Position numbers and translations under genes: made by a program. Of a stretch of 64,000 bases of DNA, positions 1-21,803 are shown piece by piece. Source of the DNA: Paramacrobiotus metropolitanus (taxonomy: Eukaryota > Tardigrada > Eutardigrada > Parachela > Macrobiotidae); the NCBI RefSeq assembly GCF_019649055.1, contig NW_026570279.1, positions 868,001 to 932,000 of the forward strand, written 5' to 3'. The notes under the pieces are model-generated. The model had not been told where the DNA came from, did no database searches, and saw only the letters and a program-made list of their open reading frames with translations. Every line of letters begins with the position of its first letter. The first letter of the stretch is position 1.

Positions 1-1458
1 GAAGATGAACTCCATAATAAGGAGGACCAGACGGCGAGACGAAAACAGGAATATCAAGAGAGGCTGACATCGCTTGAAACCCGGCTGTTTGAGTTGGAAC
101 AACAACGGGGTTACTTGGAGAGCACAGCAGAGGAATGGAAAGTGAAGTACGAAAAGCAAAGGGAACTGGCCGAAGAGTACTTGAAAATGGTTGATGACAG
201 AGAAATGGAAGGTCATCTTGCGGTCAGTGAACTTAACGAGAGTATGTCCGAAGAATCAGCTGAAAGGTCACGGCACATAGCCGAATTAAAGGACGAATGT
301 GACTCACTGAAACTAAAGGTCACCGAAACTGAAACGAAAAGAGATGAATACGCAACCAAACTCGCCGAAGTTACTCAGCGGTTGTTGACGAACACCACTG
401 AAGTCTTCAAGCTCAGGAATGACCTGAAGCTCCGTGACGAGAATATCGGGACCCTCCAGAAGGAGTCATACGATCACCAGAGAAGAGCTGATGAAGCCGC
501 TAAGGTGGCAAAGGACTTGCGAGATCTTACAGCCACCGAAGGTGTACGGCTGAAGAATGAAATAAGACAGGTGATGCAAGAGAACAAGGTGTTGAAGGAG
601 GACAACAAAAAGGTCACCGATGAGATCAAAGAGTTGAAAGAAGCCGCCAAGACAATTGCCGAGCAAGGCAAGAGGTGGGAACATGAGGCACACCTCCTGG
701 ATGAAAAGGTCACGGTGCTCGAGTTGAAAGATAAAGAGTGGCAACAGACAGTTCATCAGAAGACACAGGAGATCATTAAACTCAACACGGAGTTGATCGA
801 TATGACCCAAACAGCAATGACAAGAGAAGATGAGGTCAATCAGACAAAAACCCAGCTGAAAGCGGCAGCCGATGAGTACTCGAAACTGGAACGAGATGTG
901 ACCCAGTTGGCGGAACACATTAGGAAAGTGGAAAACGATACCGAAAAGGTCATCCAAGACAAAACGCTTCAATTGCATCAGCAAATGTCGAAGGTCAACC
1001 AAGAGAACCAGAACCTGAAGAATGAGAAAGAACAATCCGATTTAAGGATTAAGCGCCTCGAAGATGAGAATAAAGCTCTTCAAATGTCCAACAAACATAA
1101 AGACGAACAGCTCCTACAACACGGAGTCAGAACAGCAACAGTGGAATCGCCCCTACCCAGTTACAGCAAGGCGCATGAAACGGGCACGGGCAAAAGTTTC
1201 CACTTTGAGATGCCGCTACGAACCGGCACTGGTAAGGGAAGCGTTAAAAACGAAAGAGATGGCGAAAAGGTCACAGATGACAAAGAGCCACCTTCAGAAA
1301 GCTACCCGCATATGAGTCGAGGTGACCCTTCACAATTTCCCCCGCACATTGAAACGAATGTGTTTATCGATGAAGGACGACGAGACAGACCCCCCCAGCC
1401 GGCAGGAACGTCCGAGGAAGTCCCGTTATGGAAAGGCGCAACGAACTCAAAACGATGA
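1..1458 (+). CDS. gag: Element A Gag N-terminal coiled-coil region (partial)
   Basis: The frame is open from base 1, so the true start is upstream. It encodes a long, highly charged Glu/Lys/Gln-rich protein with heptad-like spacing of Leu/Val/Ile over about 380 residues, typical of an extended coiled coil. A Pro/Ser/Thr-rich linker follows (SPLPSYSK near 1150). In element B the matching region runs in one frame into the Gag core. Here the two lie in different frames and overlap at 1322-1458, so A probably has a frameshift in that overlap. The coiled coil plausibly serves Gag multimerisation (inference); it is far longer than a usual Ty3/Gypsy Gag N-terminus. Confidence 0.8.
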   Translation, partial: EDELHNKEDQTARRKQEYQERLTSLETRLFELEQQRGYLESTAEEWKVKYEKQRELAEEYLKMVDDREMEGHLAVSELNESMSEESAERSRHIAELKDECDSLKLKVTETETKRDEYATKLAEVTQRLLTNTTEVFKLRNDLKLRDENIGTLQKESYDHQRRADEAAKVAKDLRDLTATEGVRLKNEIRQVMQENKVLKEDNKKVTDEIKELKEAAKTIAEQGKRWEHEAHLLDEKVTVLELKDKEWQQTVHQKTQEIIKLNTELIDMTQTAMTREDEVNQTKTQLKAAADEYSKLERDVTQLAEHIRKVENDTEKVIQDKTLQLHQQMSKVNQENQNLKNEKEQSDLRIKRLEDENKALQMSNKHKDEQLLQHGVRTATVESPLPSYSKAHETGTGKSFHFEMPLRTGTGKGSVKNERDGEKVTDDKEPPSESYPHMSRGDPSQFPPHIETNVFIDEGRRDRPPQPAGTSEEVPLWKGATNSKR

Positions 1459-3040
1459 AGGAAGTAGCGAAGAAGACGATGACCGGAGAGCAGAAAACAC
1501 AGCTGTACAATTGACAAAAGCACTCAATTCAATGGCTCGGAAAACGCCTCTCATGACCTTCGACGGCAGTCGCGACACTGTGAGTGGATGGACACGGTTG
1601 GTAAAGGAAACCCAAAGGACTTACCAGCTGACGGACGACCAAATTATGATCGAGATAGCCAGTGCAGTGAAAGGTCCTGCAAAAACATGGTTCGAAGGAG
1701 AAAAGGACATCGCAGCCGAAGATGGAATTGAATACTCAATAACAGAGTGGATGGACAAATTCAAAGACGAATACGGTGATCGAGATGAAGAAGTCTTAGG
1801 TTTACGTGAGGCCTATGCAAGGAAATTTGAACTCGGAAAAGAATCGCTGGACCAGTATTATCAGGCGATGATGCGATTCAAAGCTAAAAGAATCATCACG
1901 GAGAAACAAGCAGTCGGATTCTTAATTGAAGGATGTAGAGGAGACAATGAACTCTACAAGGCATTGCGGATACTAAAGTGCAAGACGCCAACGGACGTGA
2001 AGGACTTCTTCCGACATTGGGCCACCGGCGAAGAGAAATATAAGGCGCCTAAATGTCAACGTAATCAGGAATACGTGACCATCCGCCAAGGCCAAGTCGA
2101 AAATGTGCCGCAACAGAGAATGGCAGCTACACCAATTCAGCAACCAGTTGAATACCGAGTGGAGACTCCGGTTAGAGAGGTCACGGAAAAAGTGACCTTT
2201 ATCGACAGCCAGACAGGACAACCGATAACGTACGCAATGGTAGCGGCGATACAAGCGGCAGCTCAAGTGAGACCGATACCTCAGAATGTGGCTCCACCAG
2301 CACCACAGAATGTGGCCCCTATGAATATAGGGTTACCACAACAGGGAGCGGGTAATGGAAATTTCGGTGGAAACGGATATGGAAATGGTAACTGGAACGG
2401 AGGTCAAGGAAACTTCCAACAGAACCAAGGTCAAGGTCAAGGAAACTTCAGAGGGAATCAACAGCAACAAGGGTCACGAACAGAATTCAAGTTTCAGTTA
2501 ATTGACGGATGGGTAGCAAACGGAGTGCAGATGTGCCAACAGTGCATGTATGGCAATCACCAAACACAGGGATGCAAGTTCGCCAACACACCACCGGACC
2601 AGAACCCGAACTTGTTTGCGTTCAACGAGTGGCAACGACTGCGCGGGCTTGGTGGTTGGCGCCTAGCGGTGAATAATGGATATGACCTCATCACCCAATG
2701 GTATCAGCACAAAGCAAACTTCCAAAACCAGAATGGGAACGGTAATTATGGAAATGGAAATGGTGGCCAAGGCGGCGGCTATCGTGGCGGTGGCTTCGGC
2801 CGCGGCGGCTTCAGAGGAAGGGGCAGAGGCTTCGGCCGCGGAAACTTCAGAGGAGGCCAGAACAATGGAGGTGGCCAAGGAAACTACCAACAGGGCGGCG
2901 GACAAAATAATGGTGGCGGCCAGAACATGGGAAACGGACAGAACCCTAACCCGGCAATTGGTAACGGACAACAACAAGGCAATGTGCAAGGCGCGCAACA
3001 AGGAGGGGCGCCGGTTCAGGGAAACGGGCAAGATCAGTAG
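1322..3040 (+). CDS. gag: Element A Gag core with CCHC knuckle and RGG tail
   Basis: The codons before about 1450 are probably out of frame; homology to B begins near 1500. Residues about 70-230 resemble the retrotransposon Gag domain (motifs ATFDG/TFDGS, KTWFEGE, FKDEYGD, LGLREAYARKF). Next comes a Gly/Asn/Gln-rich stretch, a zinc knuckle CQQCMYGNHQTQGC (CX2CX4HX4C, about 2534-2575), and an RGG-box tail (GRGGFRGRGRGFGRG) typical of RNA-binding proteins. It ends at TAG 3038-3040, just after a slippery GGGAAAC. Expected role: particle assembly and RNA packaging. Confidence 0.9.
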   Translation: MTLHNFPRTLKRMCLSMKDDETDPPSRQERPRKSRYGKAQRTQNDEGSSEEDDDRRAENTAVQLTKALNSMARKTPLMTFDGSRDTVSGWTRLVKETQRTYQLTDDQIMIEIASAVKGPAKTWFEGEKDIAAEDGIEYSITEWMDKFKDEYGDRDEEVLGLREAYARKFELGKESLDQYYQAMMRFKAKRIITEKQAVGFLIEGCRGDNELYKALRILKCKTPTDVKDFFRHWATGEEKYKAPKCQRNQEYVTIRQGQVENVPQQRMAATPIQQPVEYRVETPVREVTEKVTFIDSQTGQPITYAMVAAIQAAAQVRPIPQNVAPPAPQNVAPMNIGLPQQGAGNGNFGGNGYGNGNWNGGQGNFQQNQGQGQGNFRGNQQQQGSRTEFKFQLIDGWVANGVQMCQQCMYGNHQTQGCKFANTPPDQNPNLFAFNEWQRLRGLGGWRLAVNNGYDLITQWYQHKANFQNQNGNGNYGNGNGGQGGGYRGGGFGRGGFRGRGRGFGRGNFRGGQNNGGGQGNYQQGGGQNNGGGQNMGNGQNPNPAIGNGQQQGNVQGAQQGGAPVQGNGQDQ

Positions 3041-3061
3041 GCACCGGTGAGCCTACTGATC
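3019..3061 (+). promoter_or_regulatory. Gag-Pol -1 frameshift signal, element A
   Basis: GGGAAAC at 3019-3025 lies in the Gag frame exactly as G GGA AAC (X XXY YYZ). A 6-nt spacer follows, then a perfect 11-bp stem (GATCAGTAGGC at 3032-3042 with GCCTACTGATC at 3051-3061) closing an 8-nt loop. The Gag stop lies within the 5' arm. The pol-like frame downstream is the -1 frame. Element B has the same layout. This is the classical architecture of programmed -1 frameshifting. Confidence 0.85.
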
Positions 3062-3107
3062 GTCCCGACCCTAAACCACCGGATAAAAGGGAAAGGTCAC
3101 CACTGCA

Positions 3108-3968
3108 GTGAATGTGACCACTGCAACGGCTATACGGATGCCGTCAGCGCAAAAAGAAACGGCTAAATGGATGCCGCCTCAGCAAAATGAAACGGCTATA
3201 TGGATGCCGTTAATGCAAAAAGAAATTGGAACGGTTATAAGGATACCGTCACAGCAGCAGAATCAAAGGTCACCGCAGAATGGTACTGCGAGTGGAAACG
3301 TTCAAGCTGATAAAAGGTCACCGCAGAATGGTACTGCGAGTGGAAGCGCGCAACAGGACCAAAGGTCACCGCAGAATGGTACTGCGAGTGGGAATTGTCG
3401 TGACGGTAGCGCGACACTGCAAAAAGTGCAGCAAAGGTCACCGTATTGCAACGAAGAAGTGTTAGCGCAACGACGCGCAGAACGGAACGCGAAGATTCAA
3501 CAAGCGCTGCGGAACCAAAAGAAACCACAAACTGATACTGCGGAAGAAATAGAAATGCACCACGAGTGGTTCCGGAAACAAAGGGCGACAAATGAGCAAA
3601 TTTCACCTCCGCAGAACGACACTGCGGATGGACAAGAGGAAAGGTCACCTTCTGTTGGAAAAGTTCAAGTGAGAGGTCAAGGAGCGAGTGCGAACGCGAA
3701 AGGTCACGGCGACAGCGTCGTGTTGAAAGGTCAAGAAACAAACATGACACTGCGAACTGCGCAGCAAAAGAATAATGAAATGGCACAGAACTCCGACGAC
3801 TCACTTGTTGACGCAGTAACTCTGCAACAGAAGGAAAAGGCAAAAAGTGGCCTACAGACCGAATGGCAATCACGGGATGTGGATACCCGTAACGCCGAAA
3901 GCGAAGCAGAAAGCGCGAATGTCACAAGAGGATTACTGGGACATGCAAGAACTGCGAACGCAACATGA
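3108..3968 (+). CDS. pol: Element A Pol N-terminal extension, segment 1 (repeat-rich)
   Basis: Low-complexity Gln/Asn/Ser/Thr-rich protein made largely of repeats such as SPQNGTASG (copies near 3265, 3325 and 3370) and ETA-x-WMP. It aligns with the start of the long Pol frame of element B, where the same repeats occur. Relative to the frame entered by -1 shifting, a TGA at about 3106 interrupts A, so this segment is in a different frame and A is probably damaged here. No catalytic motif. At DNA level each repeat is a small hairpin preceded by AAAGGTCACC. Confidence 0.55.
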   Translation: MNVTTATAIRMPSAQKETAKWMPPQQNETAIWMPLMQKEIGTVIRIPSQQQNQRSPQNGTASGNVQADKRSPQNGTASGSAQQDQRSPQNGTASGNCRDGSATLQKVQQRSPYCNEEVLAQRRAERNAKIQQALRNQKKPQTDTAEEIEMHHEWFRKQRATNEQISPPQNDTADGQEERSPSVGKVQVRGQGASANAKGHGDSVVLKGQETNMTLRTAQQKNNEMAQNSDDSLVDAVTLQQKEKAKSGLQTEWQSRDVDTRNAESEAESANVTRGLLGHARTANAT

Positions 3969-4653
3969 GAGGAGAAGATTAGAAGAGTTGGTTACCGGGA
4001 AACCAGCGCAAGGGTCACCGAACCCAGTCCCAGCATTCGACCCAGCTGAATATAAGAAGGCATTCGCTGACGAAAATTTTAAAAGAAATGCACCGCCAAA
4101 CGATAAACCGTTAAATTATGGAGAAAAAGTCCCCATACAAAAGTTGACAGGCGGCGGATTTGTCATGAAGCGCAACGAAAGGTCACAGGACTTAGCGCAA
4201 AATGAACAAAAAGGAAGGTCAAATGAGAGGGCGCAAACGCAACAGAGTGGCGCAACCGAAAGGTCACGGGACTTATCACAAGCACTGCAAAAGGATGCCA
4301 ATGACAAGTCACCAGCCCGAACAGACGGGATATCTTCGCAAATTGACCCAACGAAAACGAACAATGAAGTATCTGCAAAAGTGATGCAATGGATGACCGA
4401 AAAGGGATATGACATGGTTACATATGAAAGGTCACCAGATGAGCTGAAAGACAGTGAAGCAGATGAACTGAAGCAAGCCGACCAAATAACAAGCGAAGTC
4501 ATTGAGAAGTTGCGAGATAAACGAAATGAAAACCGTAAAGAGGAACTGATCCACCAAACGATAAATGAAGTGACAAAAGGTCACGGGGATAGCACAAAAG
4601 CAAACGAGCAAGTGCAAAATGCCGAAAAGGTCACCAGCAGTAAAGATTCCTGA
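3847..4653 (+). CDS. pol: Element A Pol N-terminal extension, segment 2
   Basis: Overlaps the previous segment in another frame. B encodes both parts in one frame, so A carries a frameshift near 3845. The sequence is polar and Lys/Glu-rich, with conserved blocks shared with B: APPNDKPLNYGEKVP, SPARTDG and MVTYERSPD. Repeated ERSRDL-type peptides are the translation of AAAGGTCACGG motifs. No known domain recognised. It stops about 60 codons before the protease motif. Confidence 0.55.
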   Translation: MAYRPNGNHGMWIPVTPKAKQKARMSQEDYWDMQELRTQHERRRLEELVTGKPAQGSPNPVPAFDPAEYKKAFADENFKRNAPPNDKPLNYGEKVPIQKLTGGGFVMKRNERSQDLAQNEQKGRSNERAQTQQSGATERSRDLSQALQKDANDKSPARTDGISSQIDPTKTNNEVSAKVMQWMTEKGYDMVTYERSPDELKDSEADELKQADQITSEVIEKLRDKRNENRKEELIHQTINEVTKGHGDSTKANEQVQNAEKVTSSKDS

Positions 4654-5160
4654 GAAGCAAACAGACAAGAAAGAGACTCGGAAATTTTACGATGTTCGGA
4701 CTGACGTGCCACACAGGATCGATAAGTTGAGCGAGATACTGAAAGGTCACAGTACTCAACGAAAGGATAAACGCCCCCTGACATGGATCCGGGACCAGTA
4801 TCACTTATTCCTGTGAAATGTAAGATTCACACATTGAAGATTCAAAACGGAAAATTGCCCAAGAATCGAAGCATACACATGAAGTGAAAGTGGGAGACAT
4901 AAAGGTCAACGCAATGTTGGACACCGGCGCTGAGACGTCGCTGATCAGCAAACCGTTTTGCGAAAATGGATTGCCCCATTACCACCAGATAGACTGGTGA
5001 AGATAAACGGATAGCGGAACGTCAGGATCAACGTGAAAGTGGGAAGACAGAAGCGAACAACGCCAGTGTTGGACGTACCGGTTCGACTATGAGACGTACG
5101 GTGATCGACAGAACCGTTTTGGATAACGAAAGGAGAACCGATTGCAACGTCTCACCGAAC
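4619..5160 (+). pseudogene. pol: Element A retropepsin-like protease remnant
   Basis: The conserved block preceding protease (FYDVRTDVPHRID) is at about 4683-4722. The aspartic-protease active-site motif LDTGAETSLIS is readable at about 4917-4950, in a different frame. After about 4960 the similarity to the intact B protease (30260-30540) breaks up through several indels and stops. The flap and C-terminal Gly-rich strand cannot be followed. This copy is very unlikely to make an active protease. Confidence 0.75.
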
Positions 5161-5199
5161 TAAAGACAAACCCAGACCAGACACCGGGAAACGAAAAAG

Positions 5200-8100
5200 A
5201 TGGCGCAAAAAGAATTGTCACCATTTGAGCAGTTGCGAATGATTCAACAGGAAATCGAAAACACATTGAATCGGTCAATGCTGATGCAACAGGGAAGAGA
5301 GAAGGTCATCTCAGTACCAGAGACACTGGAGAAGAAAAGCGAATGCACAAAAGTCGACGAAAGGAAGAAGGAACTGCTCGCGCCAGATATGGATGAGGTG
5401 ATCATATTTCTCCCGGACGGGAGAAGTATGATCGCAGACGACAATGAACAAGGAGCTACAGAAAATGGAAATGTCGAAAAAGCTATCCCAGTACCAGAGG
5501 CACTGGAAACGAAAAATGAAAACGGAAATGCTGAAAAAGTTATCCCAGTACCAGAGGCACTGGGAAATAAAGATGTAAGGTCACCGACGAGACGAGTTGA
5601 GGATAGCCGTGAGGTAGCAGAGCGCACCTCCCAAAAGGAATCCTTTTTCGAACCACGATCTGCTACCAAAGATGAAACCGAAGAAAAAGAATTGCAAAGA
5701 ATACCAGAGCGTACTACTAACGATGAAAGGTTTCCAACACTTGAAGAGATAGTTGCCACACAGAAAGAAGCGGCAGCTGCGGCGAAACAATCGCTTGTGC
5801 CAGGCATGGAGTGGGCAAAACCTATCCCAGTACCAGAGGCACTGGGAATAAAGACGGCTAAAGTATGGAAGGATAAAAAGAGTGAAAGGTTACGAGTACT
5901 GAAACGAATAGCCGAAGAAGAACAGATGTTTACAAGTGAAATTCGTAACAAGGCGTTGGAGCAGCTGAAAGGTCACCGGACAAATAAAGAACCAGAGGTC
6001 ATCGAAATATCCTCTGAAGATAAAAGCGCGACTCCAATTGAATGTGAGGAAGATACCACAGCACAGGAAGAGGTTAAACCTCAAGCGAGCCAAAGGACAT
6101 TAACTCCAGAAGAACGAGCCGGGAGTTGTCACCACGGTTACTTTGAGGACCCGTGCAGAGTACAACCACAATGGGAATGTGCGGAATGTTGCGAAAATGC
6201 CTCCCAAGATGACCCTTCACAGTGGCCGAAATGTAATGCCGCATTAGCAGACCTTAAAGGTCATGTCCAAAAGGAAGTGAAAAGCATCATGCGGACAAAC
6301 GAAATGTGGAAACCACACATCGAACGATATCATTGGAATAGATATCGAACATGGCTATCATGTGTGGAAAGCTTTATAATCGGGAGAGGTAAATGGTTAA
6401 ACCACTGGTTAAAACGTGTCGAAAAGGGGATCCAAGACCCCCTTGATCCGGTAGCAACCGAAAAGAGATTTGAAAGAGAGATAGAAGAGATGAACGAAGA
6501 AGGGGAGTTGTGGGAAGAAGCGAGAGTTGACCTTTTCTGGGACTTTCGCGTAAACCACATGTATAAAGGTGAAGGAAGAACGATTATTTTTCCAGCAGGA
6601 CTTGGCACACCTGTTTATGAATCGCTCCAAGTATACTACGACGCGTTAAAAGAGGGAAATGAAGAGCAATTTGAAAGATACTGGGAAAAATTTGAAAGAG
6701 AAATTCCCACATTTGATGTCAAAGACATGAGAGAATTACAGGTAACCCGGAGAAGAAGGTTACCGGGATTAATGCAGAAGAAAAAGGTGACCTTTGCACC
6801 AGATCCAGACGGAGTGGATTACCCAGAACGAGGCGGCGACACGTGGTGCATGTATGAAACGATTCCAGATGATGAATGGGTCACCGAGGAATTGATGGCA
6901 AACTGTATCTTCGTCGGTCCCAAACGACCTAAAGGTTACGGAATGGTTCAACAGGATAAAGCTCATAAAGAGACTACAAAAGGAACAGAACAAGAGGAGC
7001 TGGTTAAAGAGATAGTCGAGGGAGGATCGAATGAAACGGAAGAAAGTTCAAGGTCAGCATTCGACATTGCACAGATGCTAACGGATAGAGGTGAAATGTG
7101 GAAGAAGTTCAAAGAAGAAGTGGACCGAATAACGAATGAACAGCAAAACCCAGTAACTGAGGCAAAAAACGGGGAAAGGTCACTCGATAACGGTGAGGAA
7201 TGTCCGCCGGTCGAGTTGACCGAAAAGCCATTAACAAACCTTGAAGAAACAAATGAACGGGAAAAGTCGAAATCGGACGAAAGGTCAGACTCCGATCAAT
7301 CAGAAAGGTCACCAACGAGAATCCGAGTAGCAAGGAGTCACCCGAGAGTCGCTGCACGAAACGGGCGAAAGGCAAAAGAGGGGGACAAACCTCTGCTCAA
7401 AAATTCGAAAGCGAAAAAACTTAGCGATTCACGGGAAAATGAAAGTGACCTTTCATCAGAAGATGAAGGAGTTGATGAACGCCCACTCGAAAAGGCTGAC
7501 AAAGGTCAAGTCACTGCACAAGAATACGAGAGCAGTAATTCGGACTCGGAATGGACGAGTTCAAGTGATAATTCAACGACTTCGGAAGATTCAGGTGTAA
7601 GTGACCTTTCGGAGCAAGAGGATTTAATGGACTTGGATGAAGACGACGAAGTGGATGAAGAAAAAGAAAAGGATATTAAAGTCAGAAGATTGAAAGTAGA
7701 AAAGGCCAGAATGTCGAAAGATGTAATCAAAGTCTACAGTGATCAAAGAATTACACTGAAACCGTCCAACTGCACACGCGTAAAGGTCAAGATGGGAAAA
7801 TACGCACCGGCCCAAAACAAGCTGATGTTTACACCGGTCCCACAAGTGGAAACTGAAGTGCAACCGTTGGCAGGAGTGACGGACCACAGGGGAAAATACT
7901 TCGAAATCGTCATCGCGAATCACAGTAGCAAATATCGGATCGTGAAGAAAAATCAACTTCTCGGCTACGTTGAACCGTATGAACATATGGAGAATGTAAA
8001 GGTCAACGCAGGGACAGTAAAAAACGTACTCGAAGACCCTGATGTGGACGATACAACGAAAGCCGAACTTACAAAGATAATTGAAAATTTGAAACTAGGA

Positions 8101-8292
8101 CCTGACCTCACTGAAGAACAGAAGAACGACGTGTATAACGCGTTTTGGGAATTCTGGAAGGTTTTACCCACATCAGAGAAACCATATGGAGATGTGAAAG
8201 GGGTCACTCACGTAATTGATACGGGAGACGCCAAACCAGTTAAATGCAACCCGGCCAGAACGAGTTGGACAGGCCGCGAGTTTATAACATAG
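5200..8292 (+). CDS. pol: Element A Pol spacer region to RT N-terminus
   Basis: About 1000 codons between protease and RT, where most Ty3/Gypsy elements have few. Seen: repeats of IPVPEALG (5486, 5543, 5825), each encoded by a near-identical DNA hairpin; an ERTSQKESFFEPRSAT repeat (about 5620); a Cys/His cluster (CHHG...CRVQPQ...CAEC) at about 6125-6240 conserved in B and possibly metal-binding; and acidic Ser-rich tracts (7440-7650). The end matches the start of RT (KPVKCNPARTSW). It stops at TAG 8290-8292, where B reads AAG, so a nonsense change cuts A's RT. Confidence 0.75.
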   Translation: MAQKELSPFEQLRMIQQEIENTLNRSMLMQQGREKVISVPETLEKKSECTKVDERKKELLAPDMDEVIIFLPDGRSMIADDNEQGATENGNVEKAIPVPEALETKNENGNAEKVIPVPEALGNKDVRSPTRRVEDSREVAERTSQKESFFEPRSATKDETEEKELQRIPERTTNDERFPTLEEIVATQKEAAAAAKQSLVPGMEWAKPIPVPEALGIKTAKVWKDKKSERLRVLKRIAEEEQMFTSEIRNKALEQLKGHRTNKEPEVIEISSEDKSATPIECEEDTTAQEEVKPQASQRTLTPEERAGSCHHGYFEDPCRVQPQWECAECCENASQDDPSQWPKCNAALADLKGHVQKEVKSIMRTNEMWKPHIERYHWNRYRTWLSCVESFIIGRGKWLNHWLKRVEKGIQDPLDPVATEKRFEREIEEMNEEGELWEEARVDLFWDFRVNHMYKGEGRTIIFPAGLGTPVYESLQVYYDALKEGNEEQFERYWEKFEREIPTFDVKDMRELQVTRRRRLPGLMQKKKVTFAPDPDGVDYPERGGDTWCMYETIPDDEWVTEELMANCIFVGPKRPKGYGMVQQDKAHKETTKGTEQEELVKEIVEGGSNETEESSRSAFDIAQMLTDRGEMWKKFKEEVDRITNEQQNPVTEAKNGERSLDNGEECPPVELTEKPLTNLEETNEREKSKSDERSDSDQSERSPTRIRVARSHPRVAARNGRKAKEGDKPLLKNSKAKKLSDSRENESDLSSEDEGVDERPLEKADKGQVTAQEYESSNSDSEWTSSSDNSTTSEDSGVSDLSEQEDLMDLDEDDEVDEEKEKDIKVRRLKVEKARMSKDVIKVYSDQRITLKPSNCTRVKVKMGKYAPAQNKLMFTPVPQVETEVQPLAGVTDHRGKYFEIVIANHSSKYRIVKKNQLLGYVEPYEHMENVKVNAGTVKNVLEDPDVDDTTKAELTKIIENLKLGPDLTEEQKNDVYNAFWEFWKVLPTSEKPYGDVKGVTHVIDTGDAKPVKCNPARTSWTGREFIT

Positions 8293-8304
8293 CATATCGA
8301 AGAG

Positions 8305-13224: not shown

Positions 13225-14210
13225 CGGACGAGGACCTTTTGGCCACAAAGCAGAAGATTGATGCCGTATTAACGGAACGAGCAGAAAGGTCACGGGCCAG
13301 CTCGGTTGCAGGATCAGGACGTGGACGTACTAGTTCGGTCACAGAACCATCCAGTGGCACCACGAAGAGTGGAAAAAGAGTGAGATCACCGACGACAAGC
13401 CCAAAAGAAACTGATAAGAAAGGGCAGCGAACAAAGAAGCCCACAGAAAGCAAAGCAACACCAGCTGAGCCGGCAAAGCCACAAGCCCCGATTCCAGTGG
13501 GTAGAAAGAGTGTACCACCCACGCCGAAAGGAACGGAAGGTCAGATTCGATTCCCGAAGTGCAGAAGTTTTACGGCCAAATACACTGGGACAGACCATAA
13601 AGAACGAAAGGTCACCGCGCGTATTGTTGATAGGAAAACGAATAAAGAAATCGACTCTTATAATCCTCTTGCGGATAAGTCAGTCAAGGATGCCATTGGG
13701 GAACAGTCAAAAATGTTAGTCAATGAGGCGTTACAGCTTATTCCCCCAGAGGAACGTCACAATCCAAGAGTTCTCATTCAGATGCTGAAGCATGTGGTAT
13801 CTAAAGTCGCGATCGAAGAAGATGCATGGATCCGTATCAAAGTGGGCACAAATGGCGACCACCTGGCATACACGTATACAACGGACGGCAAATTGTTGGC
13901 CAAGGAGAGAATTCGCGCAAAGCCGACGGCGAATCCTGACCCGAAAAAACGATCGTCAGATGATTATGAGACGGTCCCGAGATATACAGATGCGGCAAGT
14001 AGAAAGGTCACCCTCCGAATTTTCGCCGGCAATGGAGAAGTTGTGGAGACCATAACCGCAGTGATTGTTGACCCAATAACCGGTGACCCGATCCCACACG
14101 CTCCATGGGACGTATCAGAAGAAAGCGCCCAAAACGCGAACCAGGTGGCCCTTGATCAATTATACCGGAAAGTGACCGCACAGATGCCGTGGTTCAAGCG
14201 AGTACACTGA
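13221..14210 (+). CDS. Element A ORF3 middle part (conserved core)
   Basis: Aligns with the middle of the single 1192-codon B ORF3. Opens with EMTDEDLLATKQKIDAVL, then a Ser/Thr/Lys/Pro-rich linker. A globular-looking conserved core of about 210 residues follows (FTAKYTGTDHKERKVTARI; DHLAYTYTTDGKLLAKER; RKVTLRIFAGNGE). The alternating beta-like pattern and repeated 'TDG(K/E)(L/M)LA' suggest a two-repeat beta fold. I do not recognise the family. Confidence 0.65.
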   Translation: MTDEDLLATKQKIDAVLTERAERSRASSVAGSGRGRTSSVTEPSSGTTKSGKRVRSPTTSPKETDKKGQRTKKPTESKATPAEPAKPQAPIPVGRKSVPPTPKGTEGQIRFPKCRSFTAKYTGTDHKERKVTARIVDRKTNKEIDSYNPLADKSVKDAIGEQSKMLVNEALQLIPPEERHNPRVLIQMLKHVVSKVAIEEDAWIRIKVGTNGDHLAYTYTTDGKLLAKERIRAKPTANPDPKKRSSDDYETVPRYTDAASRKVTLRIFAGNGEVVETITAVIVDPITGDPIPHAPWDVSEESAQNANQVALDQLYRKVTAQMPWFKRVH

Positions 14211-14677
14211 TCAGTATAATGCGGTATCGAGCAGAAAAAGACGAAGCACACTACCGGCTAACGAGACGAATGGAAGATGGAGCATATAAGACGACGTTTT
14301 ATGATGCAAAGAATGAACCCTTGTGGGAGATCGTCTCAAAGGGACAGACGAAAGAAACACCACACTTGGAAATTCAGGACAAACAGCCCCCGGCACAGGA
14401 AGGTGGAGCCGGAGAAATGGAAGAGACCTCAGTCACAGGAGTCGAAGAAACTGGAGGCGCCAGACGTTCGTTGCAAAGAGTACTCGAGATTGCTCAAGGA
14501 AGCCAGGATCACCTTCAGTGTGACGAACCAAACTGTGCCCATTGCAACCCACCTGGTGACGCTGAACCAGAGTCGGAAGATGAGAACTCAGTTGAAGATG
14601 AAGAAGACTCAGATGAGGAAATGGTGGACAAACACAAAAAAGCCCTCAAAAGAGGCGACACCGAGAAAAGCGCCTAA
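14189..14677 (+). CDS. Element A ORF3 part with conserved Cys cluster
   Basis: Matches B ORF3 around its residues 790-950. It contains RRSLQRVLEIA and the Cys cluster CDEPNCAHCNPP (B: CNDVNCDRCHPP), spacing C-x4-C-x2-C, possibly metal-binding. An acidic Glu/Asp run follows. A frame change from the previous segment lies at about 14190-14210. Confidence 0.55.
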   Translation: MVQASTLISIMRYRAEKDEAHYRLTRRMEDGAYKTTFYDAKNEPLWEIVSKGQTKETPHLEIQDKQPPAQEGGAGEMEETSVTGVEETGGARRSLQRVLEIAQGSQDHLQCDEPNCAHCNPPGDAEPESEDENSVEDEEDSDEEMVDKHKKALKRGDTEKSA

Positions 14678-15047
14678 GTTGGAAGAAGCTATGAACCGTG
14701 AGAAGCCTAAGAAAGGGGACTTCCTAAAGAAACGAAGGGAAGCAGAAGAGAGGAAGAAAAAGAGCGGTGATGAAAGCGAGAGCACAAGCACCGAGAAAAA
14801 GAAGACGGAGGGGAAGAAGAAAGAAAAACCGTCATCTCATGATGTTGAAATACTGGACGAATCAGTTGGCGAAGTTGAAGAAAGATCATCGACACCTACA
14901 ACCTCAAAGAAAGTCATCCAATCAGCTACATCAAAAGCAAAGGTCACTGAGCCTGAGTCGCCAAAACCCAAAGCAAAGGTCATAGCAGTGAAACAGGTTG
15001 TCCCCATTGTCATTTCGGCATCCACGCCGAAAAGGGCGCAGGGATAA
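14640..15047 (+). CDS. Element A ORF3 Lys/Glu-rich tail segment
   Basis: Readable in the frame 14277-15047, but similarity to B starts only near 14640. Lys/Glu/Ser-rich, disordered-looking, with KKVIQSATS and an SDE-type acidic patch (EILDESVGEVEE) shared with B (EVLEIDESL). Frame broken again near 15030. Confidence 0.45.
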   Translation, partial: KPSKEATPRKAPKLEEAMNREKPKKGDFLKKRREAEERKKKSGDESESTSTEKKKTEGKKKEKPSSHDVEILDESVGEVEERSSTPTTSKKVIQSATSKAKVTEPESPKPKAKVIAVKQVVPIVISASTPKRAQG

Positions 15048-15192
15048 ACAGACTCGGGAAAAAGCAAAGCGCGAGACGTCCCGTGAGTCAGAGGCATCGG
15101 AAGTGAGCCTTCCAAGCACTTCGACGGTTAGCGCGAGGTCACATACGCATTCGAAAACGCACGGTCCAGGACCACAGAACCAAGAAGCCTAG
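14998..15192 (+). CDS. Element A ORF3 C-terminal end
   Basis: Useful coding begins near 15045 with KAKRETSRESEASEVSLPSTST, matching B KGKRETSRESTASEASRPSTST; the earlier codons are out of frame. It ends at TAG 15190-15192. The ORF4 frame is the -1 frame relative to this one, the same relation as in B. Confidence 0.45.
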   Translation: MSPLSFRHPRRKGRRDKQTREKAKRETSRESEASEVSLPSTSTVSARSHTHSKTHGPGPQNQEA

Positions 15193-15200
15193 CCGAGGCT

Positions 15201-16961
15201 TTGGATAAAGGGAAAAAAGCAAAGAGCGAACCCGTTAAGACCAAAGGAAAGGGCAAGGCAGCCACAAAAATCGATGCATTGGCGATGATTAATTATACTG
15301 AACCAGATGGAGAGAGCGAGTTGGACTTCACCTCGGATGAAGAATTTGATGCTCCCGACAACGATAATTTGACCACCGTCGATGAAATCATCAATGCGTA
15401 TAACGGAGCGGAGAAAAATTTCACACGAATAAGGACAGCATCAGTGACATCGAAATTTAAGGCGGGCCTGAAGACATACTTGAAGAAACAGCGTCGTAGC
15501 TTCACTAAACGAAAGTTCGACGTCGTATTGGAATTTGCGCGGAACGCAGGGAAACTTATCCAGAAGCACCCGAGTTTTTCGTATGAGGCTAAGTTGTTCA
15601 GACCAGCCAGCTCGGATAAAGCGCTGACAACTCCGAATGAACCGGTCCCAATGCGGGTAGAAAGGGCAATCGCAGGAATGACAAGCCCGTTAGGGTCAAC
15701 AAGTCACCGGATCAGCCAATACATTAACGCAGTTTGGAACGATGGAAATGGAATGATAAAGGAACTCGACGTGGCAACTGAGCGTGTATTGCCAAGAATG
15801 ATAAAACAGAACGTCCTTGCCACGACAAACGCACATAAAGGACACCCGATCCGATACACGAGAGTTGGTCTAATACCACCGGAAAGACAGATCCACTGTA
15901 ATATGTCCGACAGTCAGGATATGGAAAAGGTCACAGTTTCATCGAAGACAAAAGGCCCAATGGATTCGGAATCGGAAAGCGACGACGACGCTACTATAAC
16001 GGCTCCTTCTGGACTTACGACAGAAAAAGACGAACAGTCGAAAGGTCAAGACACATCGGGAACTGTCGCAGAAGTCCTACCGAAAGGTCACGAGACTTCG
16101 GACAAGCAGGAGAAAGAAAAGGTCATGCTCCCCATGGAAAAGGCAGCAGCAGAGGCGGAAGCAGCGGCAGCCTCTGCGCGACAAGTGTTTCAGAAATCAC
16201 TGTTCACGCCATTAAAGGAGGTTTTTGAAAAAGAGCGATCGAAATCGGCAAGCGAAGTGGGAGGTCACGAGACTACGCCACAAGAGGAAAAGAAAACAGT
16301 TGAACCGAAATCGGCGGGGTCATCATCAGGATCACTGGCAAAGCTGAGGATCGACGAGACAGCGACGGCTGACCCAACGGACTCGACATCCTCCCAGAAA
16401 AGTAGCGGTACACCGGCAAAGGAGGCTACAGATTACATGTTAGGGCCGGCATTGGACGTGAATAATCGTACATGGAACGAAGTCCAGAACGCGCTCCAGA
16501 TCATCCGAGAAAAAGAGATGCTTGGTACAGATCTGAAGAGACAAGTGGCAATAAATTCAAACGGAAGGTCGTCACTTAACATGACTGAACGAGTCTTGAA
16601 ACGAGCTTATAAGGAAGGAAAGTTGGGATGTAAATATAACAAGGACAACAAAGTCGTCTACTACCTTCCGAAACAGGGCACGGAACGAACGCCCAGACTG
16701 AAAATGGAACTGGAGGCCTGGAAGATAGCCATCACAGATGTGGCTCTGGACGCCATTGGCGGCACTAAGGGGGCGTCATGGAGCGACCTTTCGAATTTCA
16801 TGGCCGTTCACTATGAATTGGGAGAGCTGAATATTGAAAGCGATAAAGAGTGGATTAAGAATGCCGTCGAAGCCTTGATCGCAGACGAAGTGCTTCATCT
16901 TAACCCAGATGGTCGAATTGACTTCAAGCCGTATAAACCACCGGCGAAGGAATCCGAGTAA
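15201..16961 (+). CDS. Element A ORF4: linker-histone/winged-helix-like nuclear protein
   Basis: 586 codons, open from about 15170, with no ATG before about 15286; possibly expressed by -1 frameshift from ORF3. The N-terminus is Lys-rich (KGKKAKSEPVKTKGKGK). Three segments look like winged-helix/H15 folds. One is SPLGSTSHRISQYI followed by VLPRMIKQNVLATT with a KGHPIRYTRVG wing (about 15680-15870). A second is LKRAYKEGKLG with a VVYYLP wing (about 16600-16670). The third is GASWSDLSNFM with IKNAVEALIADEVL and GRIDFKPYK (about 16770-16935). The middle is acidic and low-complexity with GHE(T/S) repeats set by AAAGGTCA motifs. Proposed: DNA- or chromatin-binding accessory protein. Fold assignment is from pattern only. 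Confidence 0.7.
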   Translation: MDKGKKAKSEPVKTKGKGKAATKIDALAMINYTEPDGESELDFTSDEEFDAPDNDNLTTVDEIINAYNGAEKNFTRIRTASVTSKFKAGLKTYLKKQRRSFTKRKFDVVLEFARNAGKLIQKHPSFSYEAKLFRPASSDKALTTPNEPVPMRVERAIAGMTSPLGSTSHRISQYINAVWNDGNGMIKELDVATERVLPRMIKQNVLATTNAHKGHPIRYTRVGLIPPERQIHCNMSDSQDMEKVTVSSKTKGPMDSESESDDDATITAPSGLTTEKDEQSKGQDTSGTVAEVLPKGHETSDKQEKEKVMLPMEKAAAEAEAAAASARQVFQKSLFTPLKEVFEKERSKSASEVGGHETTPQEEKKTVEPKSAGSSSGSLAKLRIDETATADPTDSTSSQKSSGTPAKEATDYMLGPALDVNNRTWNEVQNALQIIREKEMLGTDLKRQVAINSNGRSSLNMTERVLKRAYKEGKLGCKYNKDNKVVYYLPKQGTERTPRLKMELEAWKIAITDVALDAIGGTKGASWSDLSNFMAVHYELGELNIESDKEWIKNAVEALIADEVLHLNPDGRIDFKPYKPPAKESE

Positions 16962-17314
16962 ACGGGATGAGTGTAATATGCAGTGAGTAATGAACCCTGC
17001 ATATTACAGAAAAAGCATAAAACAATACAAAACGAAAGAGAAAGCGTTACGGGAAATGGGAACAGGAAAAGTTTAACTTGAACAGCGATTAGACTAATAG
17101 AAAAGGTCACAGTAGTCAAAGAGCGCTGATAACGTGAGAAAGGTCACCACGTTACAGTGATAGAAAGGGCAGCAGGAGCTAGGAAAGTCTCAGCTCAGTA
17201 ACGGAATAGGCGTAAAAATGATAGAAAAGCCTTGATACGGATAGGAATGGAAAGATTGACGTGGAAAAGGTTACTATGATGGATTGTTTTATAATTGCAG
17301 ATTGAAGCGGAAAA
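16962..17314 (+). promoter_or_regulatory. ORF4-ORF5 spacer with conserved hairpins and acceptor-like site
   Basis: Contains an 11-bp hairpin GTAATATGCAG/CTGCATATTAC (16973-17007). B has GTGATGTGCGG/CCGCATATCAC at the same place, different bases but still paired. A second hairpin AACGTG/CACGTT (17131-17153) has AAAGGTCAC in its loop; B has ACATGG/CCATGT around the same loop. A third is GAGCT/AGCTC near 17178. TTTTATAATTGCAG ends at 17300, 14 nt before the ORF5 ATG, and B has TTAACATTGCAG there: a likely splice acceptor. Confidence 0.65.
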
Positions 17315-20053
17315 ATGGCACAAAAAGGTCAAGCCACTTCCAAACGTTCAGGAACGGCTACAGACATTGATCGGTTTACGGGCTATAATCCAAAGTGTCC
17401 GGACTGTCTACGTAATAACAAGAAAGTTGATAAGAAATTCCCATGCTACGCTTGTATTCACAAGTTGGAGGACCCGCATATGGTTTCACTCGTTGGGGTC
17501 TCGGAAGCTAAACGTGGGAACCTGGACGTCTTCCGCAACTTGATAAGTGCAAGGAATTACGGCAGCATCCCAATGGAAGAGCGAATGCTACTCGAGGATC
17601 GCTACCGGGAAGCGATCCGGAACAACGAACCCGGTTGGGATGATACCTTGGAACCGTTGAAATGCCCACAGACAGACGCGTATCGAAAGAAGTTCGAAGA
17701 AGACCAAGAGAAGATGCGAGTCAAACAAATGGAAGATGAAATTCGGGCAAAAATCAATGCGGAAAATAAAAGGGCAAGTGAACAGGCTGCACGAGAAGCA
17801 TTGCCCAGCACATCGAGTTTAGCTGCACCCACGGGCATGTCCAGCCTAAACGAAGACGAAATGCAACTCGTACGACAGTCGCTCATCATTCAGATTGATA
17901 CGCTGATAAGTGATCCGACCGCCATGCAACAGGACTTATTCGATGCGCTGTTGCGGGAAAAGTTGAGATTACAGAAGGGTTTCGCGCCAGCACCATACTT
18001 ACGGAAAGAAGTTGAAAGACGGATGGAAGAGAAACGCAAATCTCGCCAAACCGAAAGCGATGTGCTCCAGGCGCTCAGAAGCTTTAAAAGAAGCGAAGGT
18101 TTTGCTCGACCTCCATCACCTCCGCATAGAGAAAGGTCACGCGGACATTCACGCGAACATGAGCGGACTTCTGAACGACAGAGAGAAAGGTCACGCGAAC
18201 ACTCCCGTGAAAGGACACGTGACTACCGCAGCGAAAGGTCACGCGAACGTTCCCGCGACCGAGATTACCGTGGCGGAAGAGGATGGGTGCGCCGCGGAGA
18301 TGAAATAACGGAAATGTGTATCCAGCGAAAGATCGATACGGCAAAGATTCTGGCAGCGACCAGAGAACGCGAAGAGAAACGGCGTGCGGAGACGTTCCGT
18401 ACAGAACCTGAAAAGGAAGGACATCAGGTGCCGATGGGAGTGGCGTTCTGTAACCGCAACGTCAGAATGTCAACACCCGAAAGGTCATGGGATAAAAGAC
18501 GCGAACATACGCGAAATCGAACGCCTGACCCACGCGATAAGAGATGGCAACAGAGGGCTGCATTCTATGCGACCTTTGACTCGGGCGCAAGCAAAAGGTC
18601 ATCGAGTGCGGAGAGGGAAGACACACCCCCAAAATATCAGCGAATGGAGTCAACAGTTCACGTAGTGGATCCCATTGTGAGTGCCGTACAAGAAGATAAT
18701 GCGATGGAAGGCACTGGCTCAGTCGTCGAAACCACGTCTCAAGAGAATGTGACTCATCGACGAAATGTGATCTTGGATAGTGACCTTCAACCGGCTTCAT
18801 CGACGAGTAATGAACCGTCGCAGCCAGCATCAGCAGACCAACATGAACCAGAAGGTCAACGCGAACCGGACAATCGTCGTCAAGCTGAGAAGCGACAAAA
18901 CTCAAGATTCGATAACCGACAACCTGATACCATCGATATGGGATACAATATGAATGACATTGACGAGCAAACGGTTGAAATTTGCCGATATTTTGGGATT
19001 AAATCAGATTCGGCCCAAGCTAATAGGATTAGCACCATCTTGAATCAGTTGCGCCAGTTCTTACTCGATTCGGGCTACGCGGCTGAGATTATAGAAGGTT
19101 TACGTGAAGGGACTTTCCGTCGGTTATTCATCCACCGCGACTCGGCGAGAGATTGTTATCTCCCTATCAGACGGAATGGGCTACACAGTTTAGTGGATTT
19201 GAGTTTATTGGATGTACCATTGGATACAACTGACCCAATCGGAATGACACAGTTCTATTATCGCGATTACCCTGAACGACAAGAATATGTTCTACGCTAC
19301 GTGAATCCGGCTTTCAAGTTGCTTGCAGCAAGAGCATCGGTAGGACTGCAAGTGGATAGGAAAGATTACGCCGCAAAAAGGATGGGGCAAAAGGTCTTTG
19401 CTGCACGACTGGCACATTACAAGACACAGAACCAGCTGGTATCGAATACGATGAGAGACGACATCCCACCATTTTTCCGACCTCACGTCGCTAAATTGGG
19501 ACAACCGTTGGAACACATCAGCATAGCCCATAATGCTCGGAAGGAGCTGAAGAAATGTAAGACACGGATGGAAAAGGGGAACTTGACACAGCGCCATGCC
19601 TCCCAAGTTGAAGAGAGGATAAATAAGATCAAAGATTCTCTGGGAAGTGACTATGTGGAACCGGTAGACGGAGTCGAGACTTACATTGAGGAATTCTTGG
19701 TGAAGAAAAGTGACCGTCGTCCGGAACGTGCTCCTAACCAGATGGGACGACGTGGTATACGGAACCAACAACTCCGAGATAATCTCGCTGACGTACAACG
19801 GCGACTGGCAGCTGACCCTAATAACCGAAGACTGCGGTTAGAGGAGAACGACGCACGGCACCAACTTGAGAGAGTTAAGCGAAGCCGTCAAGGGAAAGGT
19901 CGTGGCCAGCGTCAGGTTGACCCGGTAAAGGCCATGGGAGTTGATTCAACGGAACCAGTTGATCGAACATCCGACCGTAATCAACCCGAAAGCGCTGAAA
20001 AACGCCCGCCAAGAGATGGCGAGGGCGATTCGAATGAAATGGAACAGTGTTGA
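17315..20053 (+). CDS. Element A ORF5: zinc-finger + RS/RE-rich accessory protein
   Basis: Intact 912-codon ORF with ATG 17315 following an acceptor-like site. N-terminus: FTGYNPKCPDCLRNN...CYACIHK gives CxxC-x(14-15)-CxxC, likely zinc-binding and conserved in B. The middle (about 18120-18300) is Arg/Ser/Glu/His-rich with ERSRE(H/R)SRERT repeats like SR splicing factors, again built on AAAGGTCACGCG. The C-terminal 300 residues are conserved (HSLVDLSLLDVPLDT; RYVNPAFKLLAARAS; EENDARHQLERVKRSRQG) and mostly helical-looking. No known family recognised. Possible RNA-binding or splicing regulator of the element (inference). It ends 38 bases before a 3' UTR tract. Confidence 0.8.
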   Translation: MAQKGQATSKRSGTATDIDRFTGYNPKCPDCLRNNKKVDKKFPCYACIHKLEDPHMVSLVGVSEAKRGNLDVFRNLISARNYGSIPMEERMLLEDRYREAIRNNEPGWDDTLEPLKCPQTDAYRKKFEEDQEKMRVKQMEDEIRAKINAENKRASEQAAREALPSTSSLAAPTGMSSLNEDEMQLVRQSLIIQIDTLISDPTAMQQDLFDALLREKLRLQKGFAPAPYLRKEVERRMEEKRKSRQTESDVLQALRSFKRSEGFARPPSPPHRERSRGHSREHERTSERQRERSREHSRERTRDYRSERSRERSRDRDYRGGRGWVRRGDEITEMCIQRKIDTAKILAATREREEKRRAETFRTEPEKEGHQVPMGVAFCNRNVRMSTPERSWDKRREHTRNRTPDPRDKRWQQRAAFYATFDSGASKRSSSAEREDTPPKYQRMESTVHVVDPIVSAVQEDNAMEGTGSVVETTSQENVTHRRNVILDSDLQPASSTSNEPSQPASADQHEPEGQREPDNRRQAEKRQNSRFDNRQPDTIDMGYNMNDIDEQTVEICRYFGIKSDSAQANRISTILNQLRQFLLDSGYAAEIIEGLREGTFRRLFIHRDSARDCYLPIRRNGLHSLVDLSLLDVPLDTTDPIGMTQFYYRDYPERQEYVLRYVNPAFKLLAARASVGLQVDRKDYAAKRMGQKVFAARLAHYKTQNQLVSNTMRDDIPPFFRPHVAKLGQPLEHISIAHNARKELKKCKTRMEKGNLTQRHASQVEERINKIKDSLGSDYVEPVDGVETYIEEFLVKKSDRRPERAPNQMGRRGIRNQQLRDNLADVQRRLAADPNNRRLRLEENDARHQLERVKRSRQGKGRGQRQVDPVKAMGVDSTEPVDRTSDRNQPESAEKRPPRDGEGDSNEMEQC

Positions 20054-20232
20054 TCGCTAGGATCACACTATTAAAAGGACGTCTACGGCATTTTGTCGGT
20101 ACGTCACAAAGATGAAAATGGTGTTGTATAAAGGGCGTGACATGTGACATATTAATATTAACTGCATTTGTGTATTTGTTGTTTGCAGCGTTTATAGCAC
20201 AGAATTGCCTAAAGAAATCATGTGGAATCCTA
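20054..20232 (+). other. Start of element A 3' UTR
   Basis: AT-rich non-coding stretch between the ORF5 stop and the hairpin array. No gene or clear element seen. Confidence 0.5.
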
Positions 20233-20684: not shown

Positions 20685-21448
20685 GCCGCTCGAGGCATGT
20701 TGAAGTTGGATGTGCGACGGAAAGGTCAAATCAAGTTCTTACCGGGGAGGCAAGCAAAGAAGTGCTTGAAAGCCGCAGAAAATCGGCTAAGTTCCTCCAT
20801 GACCTTTAATGGAAGTTTGCAAGGAAGTCGGATGACCTTTGGGATCATCAATTGCCCAACAGAGTCACGTAATGGAATTCAAGTCGCATGACCTTTGGGA
20901 CTACTAACCCAAAATGAGTCGCACATCGCAACGGATCATCTCAACAAATGATGACCTTTACCAGGGAGGAAGCGAACTACGCTTGTCTATATGGCGTCCC
21001 TCCATGACCTTTATGGATCTCATTTGAAGTCGTACAAATGATACGCACCATATTCCAAAGATGAAGCAGTATTCCTAAGTCGTACTTGATACGCACCTGA
21101 TTCTCAAGCGGATTGTGATGAAGTCGCATTACGGATGCGCAGGATTGCTCAACAGAGCGGAATGGGCCAAAGTGCAGAAAACGGTGGACAGGACCTGTGA
21201 CCTTTACGAGTCAGAAATAGAGGATCCTAGTCTACATTTGATTAATACTTTTGTTGATTATTTTTGTAATTGGATCTCTTTATTCACATCGTGTTAAAAT
21301 GGAATTGTGCCTTATGGAATTGATGTGATATGATAAATGGAATAAGAGAATTTGATGTTTTCGAGCACACACAGACATCGGCGACCGTCTTTTCGTGGAT
21401 TCGGGAGTGTGTCCAGCCTCACAGGAGCTCGGCATCCCCCCAGAGGCA
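20685..21448 (+). other. Element A distal 3' UTR (structured, TGACCTTT-rich)
   Basis: Non-coding. TGACCTTT recurs (about 20801, 20834, 20890, 20952, 21004, 21197). Further small hairpins: GGGAGG...CCTCC with inner AAGC/GCTT and GCCG/CGGC (about 20745-20800), GGGAGG/CCCTCC with AAGCG/CGCTT inside (20965-21003), TTTGGG/CCCAAA (20895-20913), CGTA/TACG pairs near 21031 and 21081, and CGCAT/ATGCG (21125). It ends in CAGAGGCA directly before the LTR; all three elements share this end. Confidence 0.65.
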
Positions 21449-21803
21449 TGTGAGACGAGGCTTCACTAGCGTTCACGCCCGTGGCGCTAGGCGCTACGCC
21501 TTTGGATTACGGTCTGTGTTGTGTCTCGCTTCTGATTGGCTTGTGTTTTGTTAGTGGGCGCGGCATAGCACGTGCTGCACAGTGTTACACACTGTTGAAT
21601 GGGCTCCACGTTTTACGATCGAGCTGCGCCGATCATTATTGATTTTCTGTTGTCTAGACTTTCAATATTATTAAAAGTCAGCGATTTACGGTGCGACGTT
21701 TGTGTTTCCGCATAGCTCGCGACCCATATCGTATCGCTCGCTTCTACGGGATAGATTCCGTTTCTGTCTCCGTCTGTGGATCTATTCTGGATCTACCATT
21801 AGA
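21449..21803 (+). repeat. Element A 3' LTR
   Basis: Starts TGTGAGACGAGG after CAGAGGCA. The right end is set by where similarity to the element C LTR stops (TGGATCTACCATTAGA), so it is uncertain by 2-3 bases. Contains an inverted CCAAT box (GATTGG, about 21534) and ATTAAA (about 21669) as a possible poly(A) signal. No second LTR in the window for this copy. Confidence 0.75.

Follow-up and report, generated by a model that had tools for sequence, protein, structure and literature searches.

How does a short DNA word come to fill a mobile element along its whole body, genes included? The usual view is that the regulatory sites of mobile elements sit at the ends and that the middle is given over to coding. 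The question is raised by a 64,000-nucleotide stretch of the genome of the tardigrade Paramacrobiotus metropolitanus (contig NW_026570279.1; C59:868001-932000 in our numbering of a genome of 169.8 Mb and 533 contigs), here called the window. Three Ty3-type long terminal repeat (LTR) elements lie within it, A and B on the forward strand and C on the reverse strand. In element A the octamer AAAGGTCA, with antisense form TGACCTTT, runs body-wide. Around the reverse transcriptase (RT), where it was measured, this word is constrained as DNA, and more strictly than the codons beneath it.

An earlier, sequence-only reading of the window had counted by eye 27 AAGGTCA/TGACCTT sites in bases 1-5000; the full count is 28 (26 sense and 2 antisense). 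The heptamer AAGGTCA occurs 86 times in the window part of A (positions 1-21803; 71 sense, 15 antisense) and 144 times in the whole window, compared with a mean of 8.5 and a maximum of 17 in 100 dinucleotide shuffles. The octamer occurs in A at 56 sense and 13 antisense positions, compared with 1.5 and 0.2 expected under an order-2 Markov model. Open reading frames (ORFs) hold 55 of these 69 sites, at least one in each listed ORF, and 4,151 non-coding bases hold the other 14 (8 sense, 6 antisense). No AAGGTCA site lies at 46859-57690, a stretch that looks host-like by eye. Genome-wide, the octamer is found 21,195 + 21,367 times and its reversed control 7,593 + 7,929 times, counts that are not apportioned between families. 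Close pairs of octamers number 1,568 + 1,569 genome-wide, compared with 30 + 22 for the control.

The coding set used for shuffling comprised ten ORF stretches of A with 17,649 coding bases, 48 sense octamers and 7 antisense ones. Protein-preserving synonymous-codon shuffles (500) gave 4.9 sense (maximum 11) and 0.25 antisense (maximum 3), and codon-order shuffles gave 0.79 and 0.08. The shuffles that the sequence-only reading had set as a test thus fail to reproduce the octamer count, whether they preserve the protein or the codons. Since synonymous shuffles fall far below the observed number, peptide composition explains a small part of the count, and the motif in turn shifts this composition. 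The antisense excess is, in relative terms, at least as large as the sense excess; most of the bias towards sense sites in the purine-rich ORFs is thus attributable to composition. The sense coding sites are spread over frames 0, 1 and 2 (9, 21 and 18 sites) and yield ERS, QRS, KVT, KGH and KGQ peptides. The suggested use of all three frames, with ERS, KVT and KGH peptides and with further sites in non-coding DNA and the 3' untranslated region (UTR), is therefore borne out.

Constraint was measured in an alignment of 30 A-family copies (L009-L038, including A and C of the window) over 3.9 kb around the RT. Of 1554 candidates, 131 were scored, and these copies are the best 30. Fifteen sites are each present in 24-30 of the 30 copies, and one further site is private. 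Each of the other 29 A-family copies has 12-15 of the 15 sites, so the enrichment persists in other copies, the second test set in advance. Diversity is 0.0115 within the octamers, 0.089 in the 12-base flanks and 0.094 elsewhere, and none of 5000 random octamer sets was as low, the sites in this test being preselected for presence in at least 15 copies. Without preselection, a site of the window copy (14 in all) is retained on average by 27.5 of the 29 other copies, compared with 12.7 for 3,683 background octamers. Thirteen of the 14 sites are each retained by at least 26 of the 29, a level reached by 10% of background octamers. Third codon positions have a diversity of 0.016 within the motif (41 positions) and 0.224 outside it, a 14-fold difference. 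Together with the synonymous shuffles, this agrees with the earlier proposal that the coding sequence is moulded by the motif and not the other way round. Tests of selection based on codons would give misleading results for such elements unless the overlapping DNA code were first taken out.

Both orientations are under much the same constraint, judged from 3-4 antisense sites in and near pol. The three antisense sites of the alignment are carried by 29, 29 and 24 of the 30 copies and the 12 sense sites by 27-30; core diversity is 0.017 and 0.010, respectively. One copy of the related family D keeps 3 of 4 antisense and 21 of 24 sense sites. The exact word is what is enriched: its count in A is about 40 times the expected one, and the best single-mismatch versions reach 4-8 times. 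In the window part of A taken with locus L039, there are 102 exact octamers for 2.5 expected, and the counts of the six best single-mismatch words are 4-12 for 0.9-2.5 expected. The next base is also restricted. G follows 2 of 95 octamers in A and 4 of 87 in D, compared with 51 of 242 and 22 of 141 after other occurrences of GTCA. Because G is rare there, the recognised unit appears to be AAAGGTCA plus one further base that is not G, most often C. No two sites lie less than 24 bp apart in A (1-21300), in a second copy, A2, or in two D copies, D1 and D2 (0 observed, 2.4-4.8 expected, P 0.005-0.07), and gaps otherwise vary as if at random. A strict spacing is not claimed, as gaps of 18 bp (D, after pol), 20 and 21 bp (5' UTR array) and 8 bp (C) break this minimum.

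Element C is an A-family copy whose middle has lost the extra ORFs and retains an ORF8 remnant 66% similar to that of A. Its middle nevertheless has one octamer per 64 bp, compared with one per about 320 bp in the coding part of A, so the motif is separable from any protein it might encode. Taken together, the constraint on sites of either orientation, their independence of frame and coding status, and an avoided flanking base suggest that a protein reads the word on double-stranded DNA.

The comparison between element families provides a second line of evidence. RT identity to A is 95-100% for A-like copies, mostly 89-92% for the B clade with F and G, 85-87% for D and 71% for E. The 7-kb pieces 5' of the RT were compared at 8 loci and two window stretches. 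They contain 28 + 6 and 33 + 6 AAGGTCA sites (sense + antisense) in A and 43 + 8 and 36 + 9 in D, compared with 0-3 in B, F, G and E. This distribution is opposite to overall similarity, as the pieces are 60-63% identical between A and D and 65-70% between A and B, F or G. Of the 33 sites in A2, 28 align to D without gaps, and 22 (D1) and 23 (D2) of these are unchanged, compared with 7.0% and 8.2% of random octamers. The corresponding numbers are 3 of 22 in B, 0 of 27 in F, 1 of 27 in G and 0 of 24 in E, for which random octamers give 8.4, 10.3, 9.0 and 2.1%. Downstream of pol, 8.1-kb stretches of F, G and E (one copy each) contain no octamer, whereas that of one D copy contains 20 + 6. Most likely, the motif is ancestral to A and D, was maintained in both and was largely lost in the B clade, given a branching order (D, then A with B, F and G) that rests on identities and not on a formal tree.

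The loss in B is not clean, since B has 6 + 3 copies of AAAGGTCA between its LTRs, where 1.0 is expected. Element B has raised words of its own, GAGATS (95 + 41, compared with 34 + 14) and AGATSATC (20 + 10, compared with 2.6 + 1.6), and at sites shared by A and D it often has AGAGATC or AAAGATCA. When 93 common hexamers were compared across 12 B-clade copies, the strongest constraint fell on GAGATG, with a core-to-flank ratio of 0.46, compared with 0.12 for the octamer of A. B is also enriched in AGATGATC, but copies of its clade do not conserve this word (core 0.354, flank 0.298), and the preference for a G-to-A change at motif position 5 over position 4 is not significant (Fisher p 0.10). 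A shift of the B clade to another site is possible. A clean motif switch is suggestive only and was set aside because of the unconserved AGATGATC, the p of 0.10 and the nine retained octamers. Other families have further words. In D (L043 and L044), AAAGTAAC occurs 17 times in sense and 0 times in antisense, for 0.4 and 0.1 expected, and one of its contexts, GCAGAAAGTAACTGCGAG, sits between two octamers. In E (L045 and L046), GGGCCA (33 + 12, compared with 9.3 + 7.5) and GTCCAA (28 + 13, compared with 10.1 + 6.3) are raised, and E may perhaps have a word of its own.

What could read such a word? The octamer AAAGGTCA is identical to the NGFI-B response element (NBRE), described as the monomer site of NR4A receptors (PMC6912296, PMC4777543). 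The host genome has 63 zf-C4 matches, and a degenerate pattern for the NR4A C-terminal extension has a single genome match, which adjoins two of them. This locus (C45:296809-298433) contains DNA-binding domain exons with the P box CEGCKG and a KGRRGRLPTK / RTDSLKGRRGRLPTKPK extension. Three pieces of the receptor gene were translated, and the translation includes VVRTDSLKGRRGRLPTKPK. We take the gene to be NR4A-type from its recognisable subfamily features.

The element-encoded proteins compared do not track the motif. Three were compared with D, namely ORF8, ORF9 and the protein preceding the RT; the coiled-coil ORF, Gag and ORF5-ORF7 fall outside this comparison. In the winged-helix region of ORF8, identity to A is 45-51% beside B-clade RTs and 30-42% in six matches beside D RTs. 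For the N terminus of ORF9 it is 44-52% in the B clade and 36% in one D copy, and for the pre-RT protein 48-64% in the B clade (75% in one G piece) and 47-49% in D. The Gag of A has no match in the D pieces examined. All three compared proteins are thus closer between A and B, F or G than between A and D, the opposite of motif sharing. This favours a reader common to all families, that is, a host protein rather than an element protein.

We propose that AAAGGTCA is a putative double-stranded DNA binding site in a body-wide array, most likely read by a host NR4A-type receptor, and that its function would be to keep chromatin active. Judging from sequence comparison, we consider this proposal about evenly poised between right and wrong. 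The 69 sites within 21.8 kb of A, with more in the 5' UTR, would form an array across coding and non-coding DNA. Binding of the receptor, or of another sequence-specific protein, along the element could keep its chromatin open and transcribed, as an anti-silencing device or as an activation switch in the germline or at times of stress. Nearly all tested sites are kept, though redundant enhancer sites need not be, which suggests an effect that scales with local coverage. By analogy with the VANC proteins discussed below, coverage might protect every stretch of the 24-kb element from silencing or let transcription pass through it. Several observations weigh against this proposal. A plain enhancer would not obviously require each of about 70 sites, and families B, F, G and E live in the same host with few or none, although the nine sites of B exceed expectation. 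DNA specificity can persist at 30-40% protein identity, which leaves room for an element-encoded reader, and ORF8, with its predicted winged helix, is a possible DNA binder of this kind. Moreover, the 5' and 3' UTR arrays are almost entirely antisense, and a strand-blind model needs duplication to explain them.

The sequence-only reading had offered a host receptor, an element-encoded binder and RNA self-pairing as mechanisms. The first gains support from the exact NBRE, the NR4A-type gene and the finding that none of the three element proteins compared follows the motif; the second may still hold. An element-encoded binder, such as winged-helix ORF8 or CxxC-bearing ORF9, would read the motif and de-silence or mark its own family in a VANC-like manner, and the B clade would have moved to GAGATS. 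The modelled winged helix is a common DNA-binding fold, and the raised GAGATS words of B, the AGAGATC or AAAGATCA at shared sites and the constraint on GAGATG are consistent with such a move. We consider this explanation rather unlikely, as none of the compared proteins follows the motif and the word of B is loose and weakly constrained, with a position-5 change short of significance. A different host factor, such as ERR, FTZ-F1, another half-site receptor or a non-receptor protein, seems improbable. FTZ-F1-like and ERR-like genes occur, by eye, among the 63 zf-C4 matches. The sites of ERR and FTZ-F1 start with TCAAGGTCA, and CAAGGTCA is hardly raised (4 for 1.6 expected in A, 4 for 1.8 in D).

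The motif could also act in RNA, as a signal for packaging, export or stability or through many-to-many pairing of AAAGGUCA in the ORFs with UGACCUUU in the UTR, an option to which we give a small but appreciable chance. In agreement with it, 55 of 62 body sites are sense and 6 of 7 in the 3' UTR antisense. A 5' region of A/D type (L054) has 14 octamers in its first 1,560 bases, all of them antisense, with array gaps of 20-119 bp. LTR elements are known to encode RNA export factors, as described for CERV of Cer1 (PMC10309623). However, the sense bias of the ORFs is expected from composition according to the codon shuffles, and 13 of the 14 octamers of L054 read GTGACCTTT. Since UTR sites share flanks such as GTGACCTTT, their reversed orientation may reflect a few events of unit duplication; it accommodates the pairing idea without requiring it. 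A sense-only RNA signal is disfavoured by the constraint on the antisense sites (3-4), which is unexpected for single-strand recognition. The remaining explanation is that the word has no binding function and arises from biased codons or peptides, from low-complexity repeats in the proteins or from a mutational process. ERS, KVT and KGH peptides are enriched and some D sites lie within repeated units, yet the third-position constraint, the use of three frames and both strands, the non-coding sites and the ORF-less segment of C make this explanation barely tenable. A codon or peptide origin of the octamer in particular is rejected by the synonymous shuffles.

The contrast of A and D with B and E, all in one genome, already provides a natural experiment. 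Should a nuclear receptor prove to be the reader, there would be a direct and testable link between a host signalling receptor and the licensing of a retroelement of 24 kb in an animal that tolerates stress. An element-encoded reader would make this a candidate anti-silencing system of animals, one in which the motif turns over between sister families (A and D as opposed to B).

The features of the window are listed in the table.

Table. Features of the window, in window coordinates.
Feature	Position	Strand	Description
Element A	1..21803	+	Ty3-type LTR element; whole element C59:865440-889803, 24,364 bp
Body sites of A	263..18601	+	55 sense AAAGGTCA (263 to 18594) and 7 antisense TGACCTTT (2193 to 10986), in ORFs and spacers
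Gag-like ORF	1316..3040	+	Gly-rich C terminus; named from position; 55% identical to the ORF of B
pol ORF	8438..11944	+	RVT_1, RNase H, integrase zinc-binding and core domains in Ty3 order
ORF8 (extra ORF)	15132..16961	+	609 amino acids; winged-helix model at residues 439-516
ORF9 (extra ORF)	17306..20053	+	915 amino acids; CxxC...CxxC N terminus, RS-rich middle
3' UTR sites of A	20721..21205	-	Antisense TGACCTTT at 20800, 20833, 20889, 20952, 21005 and 21198; 1 sense site at 20721
3' LTR of A	21449..21803	+	355 bp, 100% identical to the 5' LTR outside the window; no motif sites
Element B	23344..46858	+	Sister family; LTRs 23344-23723 and 46478-46858 (381 bp pair, 99.5% identical)
Element C	57691..64000	-	A-family copy cut by the window end; 28 own-sense and 8 antisense AAAGGTCA
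Middle of C	59300..60640	-	Extra ORFs lost, 18-24 stops per frame; 20 sense and 1 antisense AAAGGTCA in 1,341 bp

Element A begins outside the window, where its 5' LTR starts 2.56 kb upstream of base 1 and is followed by about 2.2 kb of internal sequence. Its end at 21803, as placed by the sequence-only reading, is the end of the 3' LTR. The identity of the LTR pair indicates a young insertion. Paired LTRs and the order RT, RNase H, integrase in pol place A among Ty3/gypsy elements. The pol domains are RVT_1 (residues 14-142), RNase H (207-333), H2C2 (587-645) and rve (677-759), and a predicted P. metropolitanus protein matches pol at 94% over 83% of its length. A search of the Gag-like ORF for a Gag domain found no Pfam family. 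In the structure model of ORF8, a second similar helix/strand run lies behind the winged helix; the RS-rich middle of ORF9 has motif sites at 18132, 18186 and 18234. Among the matches listed, all 9 relatives of ORF8 and all 10 of ORF9 are from P. metropolitanus. The gag-pol frame of this young copy is interrupted at 8292-8438, and several other copies have gag-pol as a single open frame of about 3,000-3,100 amino acids. A repeat around CCCAGTACCAGAGGCACTGG, coding IPVPEALG, has eight copies in A and B that are at least 60% alike (5462-5860 and 30611-32310). ORFs at 50140-50547 and 22718-23083 resemble host-gene exons by eye, the first being helicase-like. Copies of GGTGGATGACCTTT lie just beyond the 3' LTR of A (21986-22260).

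Octamer clusters were also seen at three other loci, which were picked for these clusters and are not used as evidence; the first two may be chance. At L051 (C1:276000-279000), three GGTGACCTTTATA words lie in a promoter-like stretch upstream of a short ORF with a secreted-like start, which may be a host promoter with NBREs. L052 belongs to an inverted-repeat family of 21-bp units, in which GGTGGATGACCTTT is the unit in inverted arrangement; its exact 17-mer AAAGGTGGATGACCTTT occurs 77 + 69 times genome-wide, compared with 0 for controls. L053 (C1:2894000-2896500) is from another LTR family, with a pol 37% identical to that of A, and has 7 octamers in its 5' part. A 3.5-kb pol-bearing piece of the same family (L077) has no octamers.

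Literature searches for a prior report and for receptor sites in retrotransposons yielded, in titles and abstract openings, nothing in tardigrades on element A or its motif. In size, A resembles Burro and Ogre, giant Ty3-type elements of more than 20 kb with extra ORFs or domains (PMC6431247). No dispersed constrained word is described for them in the parts of that source consulted (PMC6431247), and the LTRs of the tardigrade elements are short, at 355-381 bp. Like NR4A target genes, A carries the exact octamer, apparently independent of orientation (3-4 antisense sites), in a host with an NR4A-type gene. The gypsy Su(Hw) insulator is a case of clustered sites for a host zinc-finger protein in an LTR element, about a dozen in one non-coding region, whereas those of A are body-wide. 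Alus are short elements that are not known to carry such arrays, whereas A has 69 sites in one element. They do resemble A as mobile elements that spread AGGTCA-type nuclear-receptor sites (PMC3252374, PMC1785376). The NBREs described in the sources consulted are promoter or enhancer sites of target genes, not dozens of sites through coding DNA (PMC6912296, PMC4777543).

A close parallel is provided by the VANC anti-silencing proteins of Arabidopsis VANDAL transposons, for which the words YAGTATTAY (VANC21) and AGTTGTCC/AC (VANC6) are described (Hosaka et al. 2017, PMC5735166). The analogy drawn in the sequence-only reading fits in behaviour and not in membership. A is an animal LTR element with an RT and with the word in its ORFs, whereas VANDAL is a plant DNA transposon (vanC was not searched for). 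VANC sites, as far as described, are non-coding and often tandem repeats, and the coding probes tested were without them (PMC5735166). A binder co-evolving with its word would be expected to track it, and the three compared proteins of A follow the element phylogeny instead, with other D ORFs outside the comparison. As in VANDAL, a short exact word is repeated through one mobile-element family and differs in relatives, being present in A and D with few or none in B, F, G and E. The role proposed for the VANDAL word is sequence-specific escape from silencing (PMC5735166). With somewhat less than even confidence, we suggest that two giant LTR families turned their whole length, genes included, into a site array for a host NR4A receptor responsive to stress and signals, that selection keeps the sites even where they dictate amino acids, which would make the element receptor-addressed chromatin along its full length, and that the result is a whole-body animal counterpart of VANDAL/VANC.

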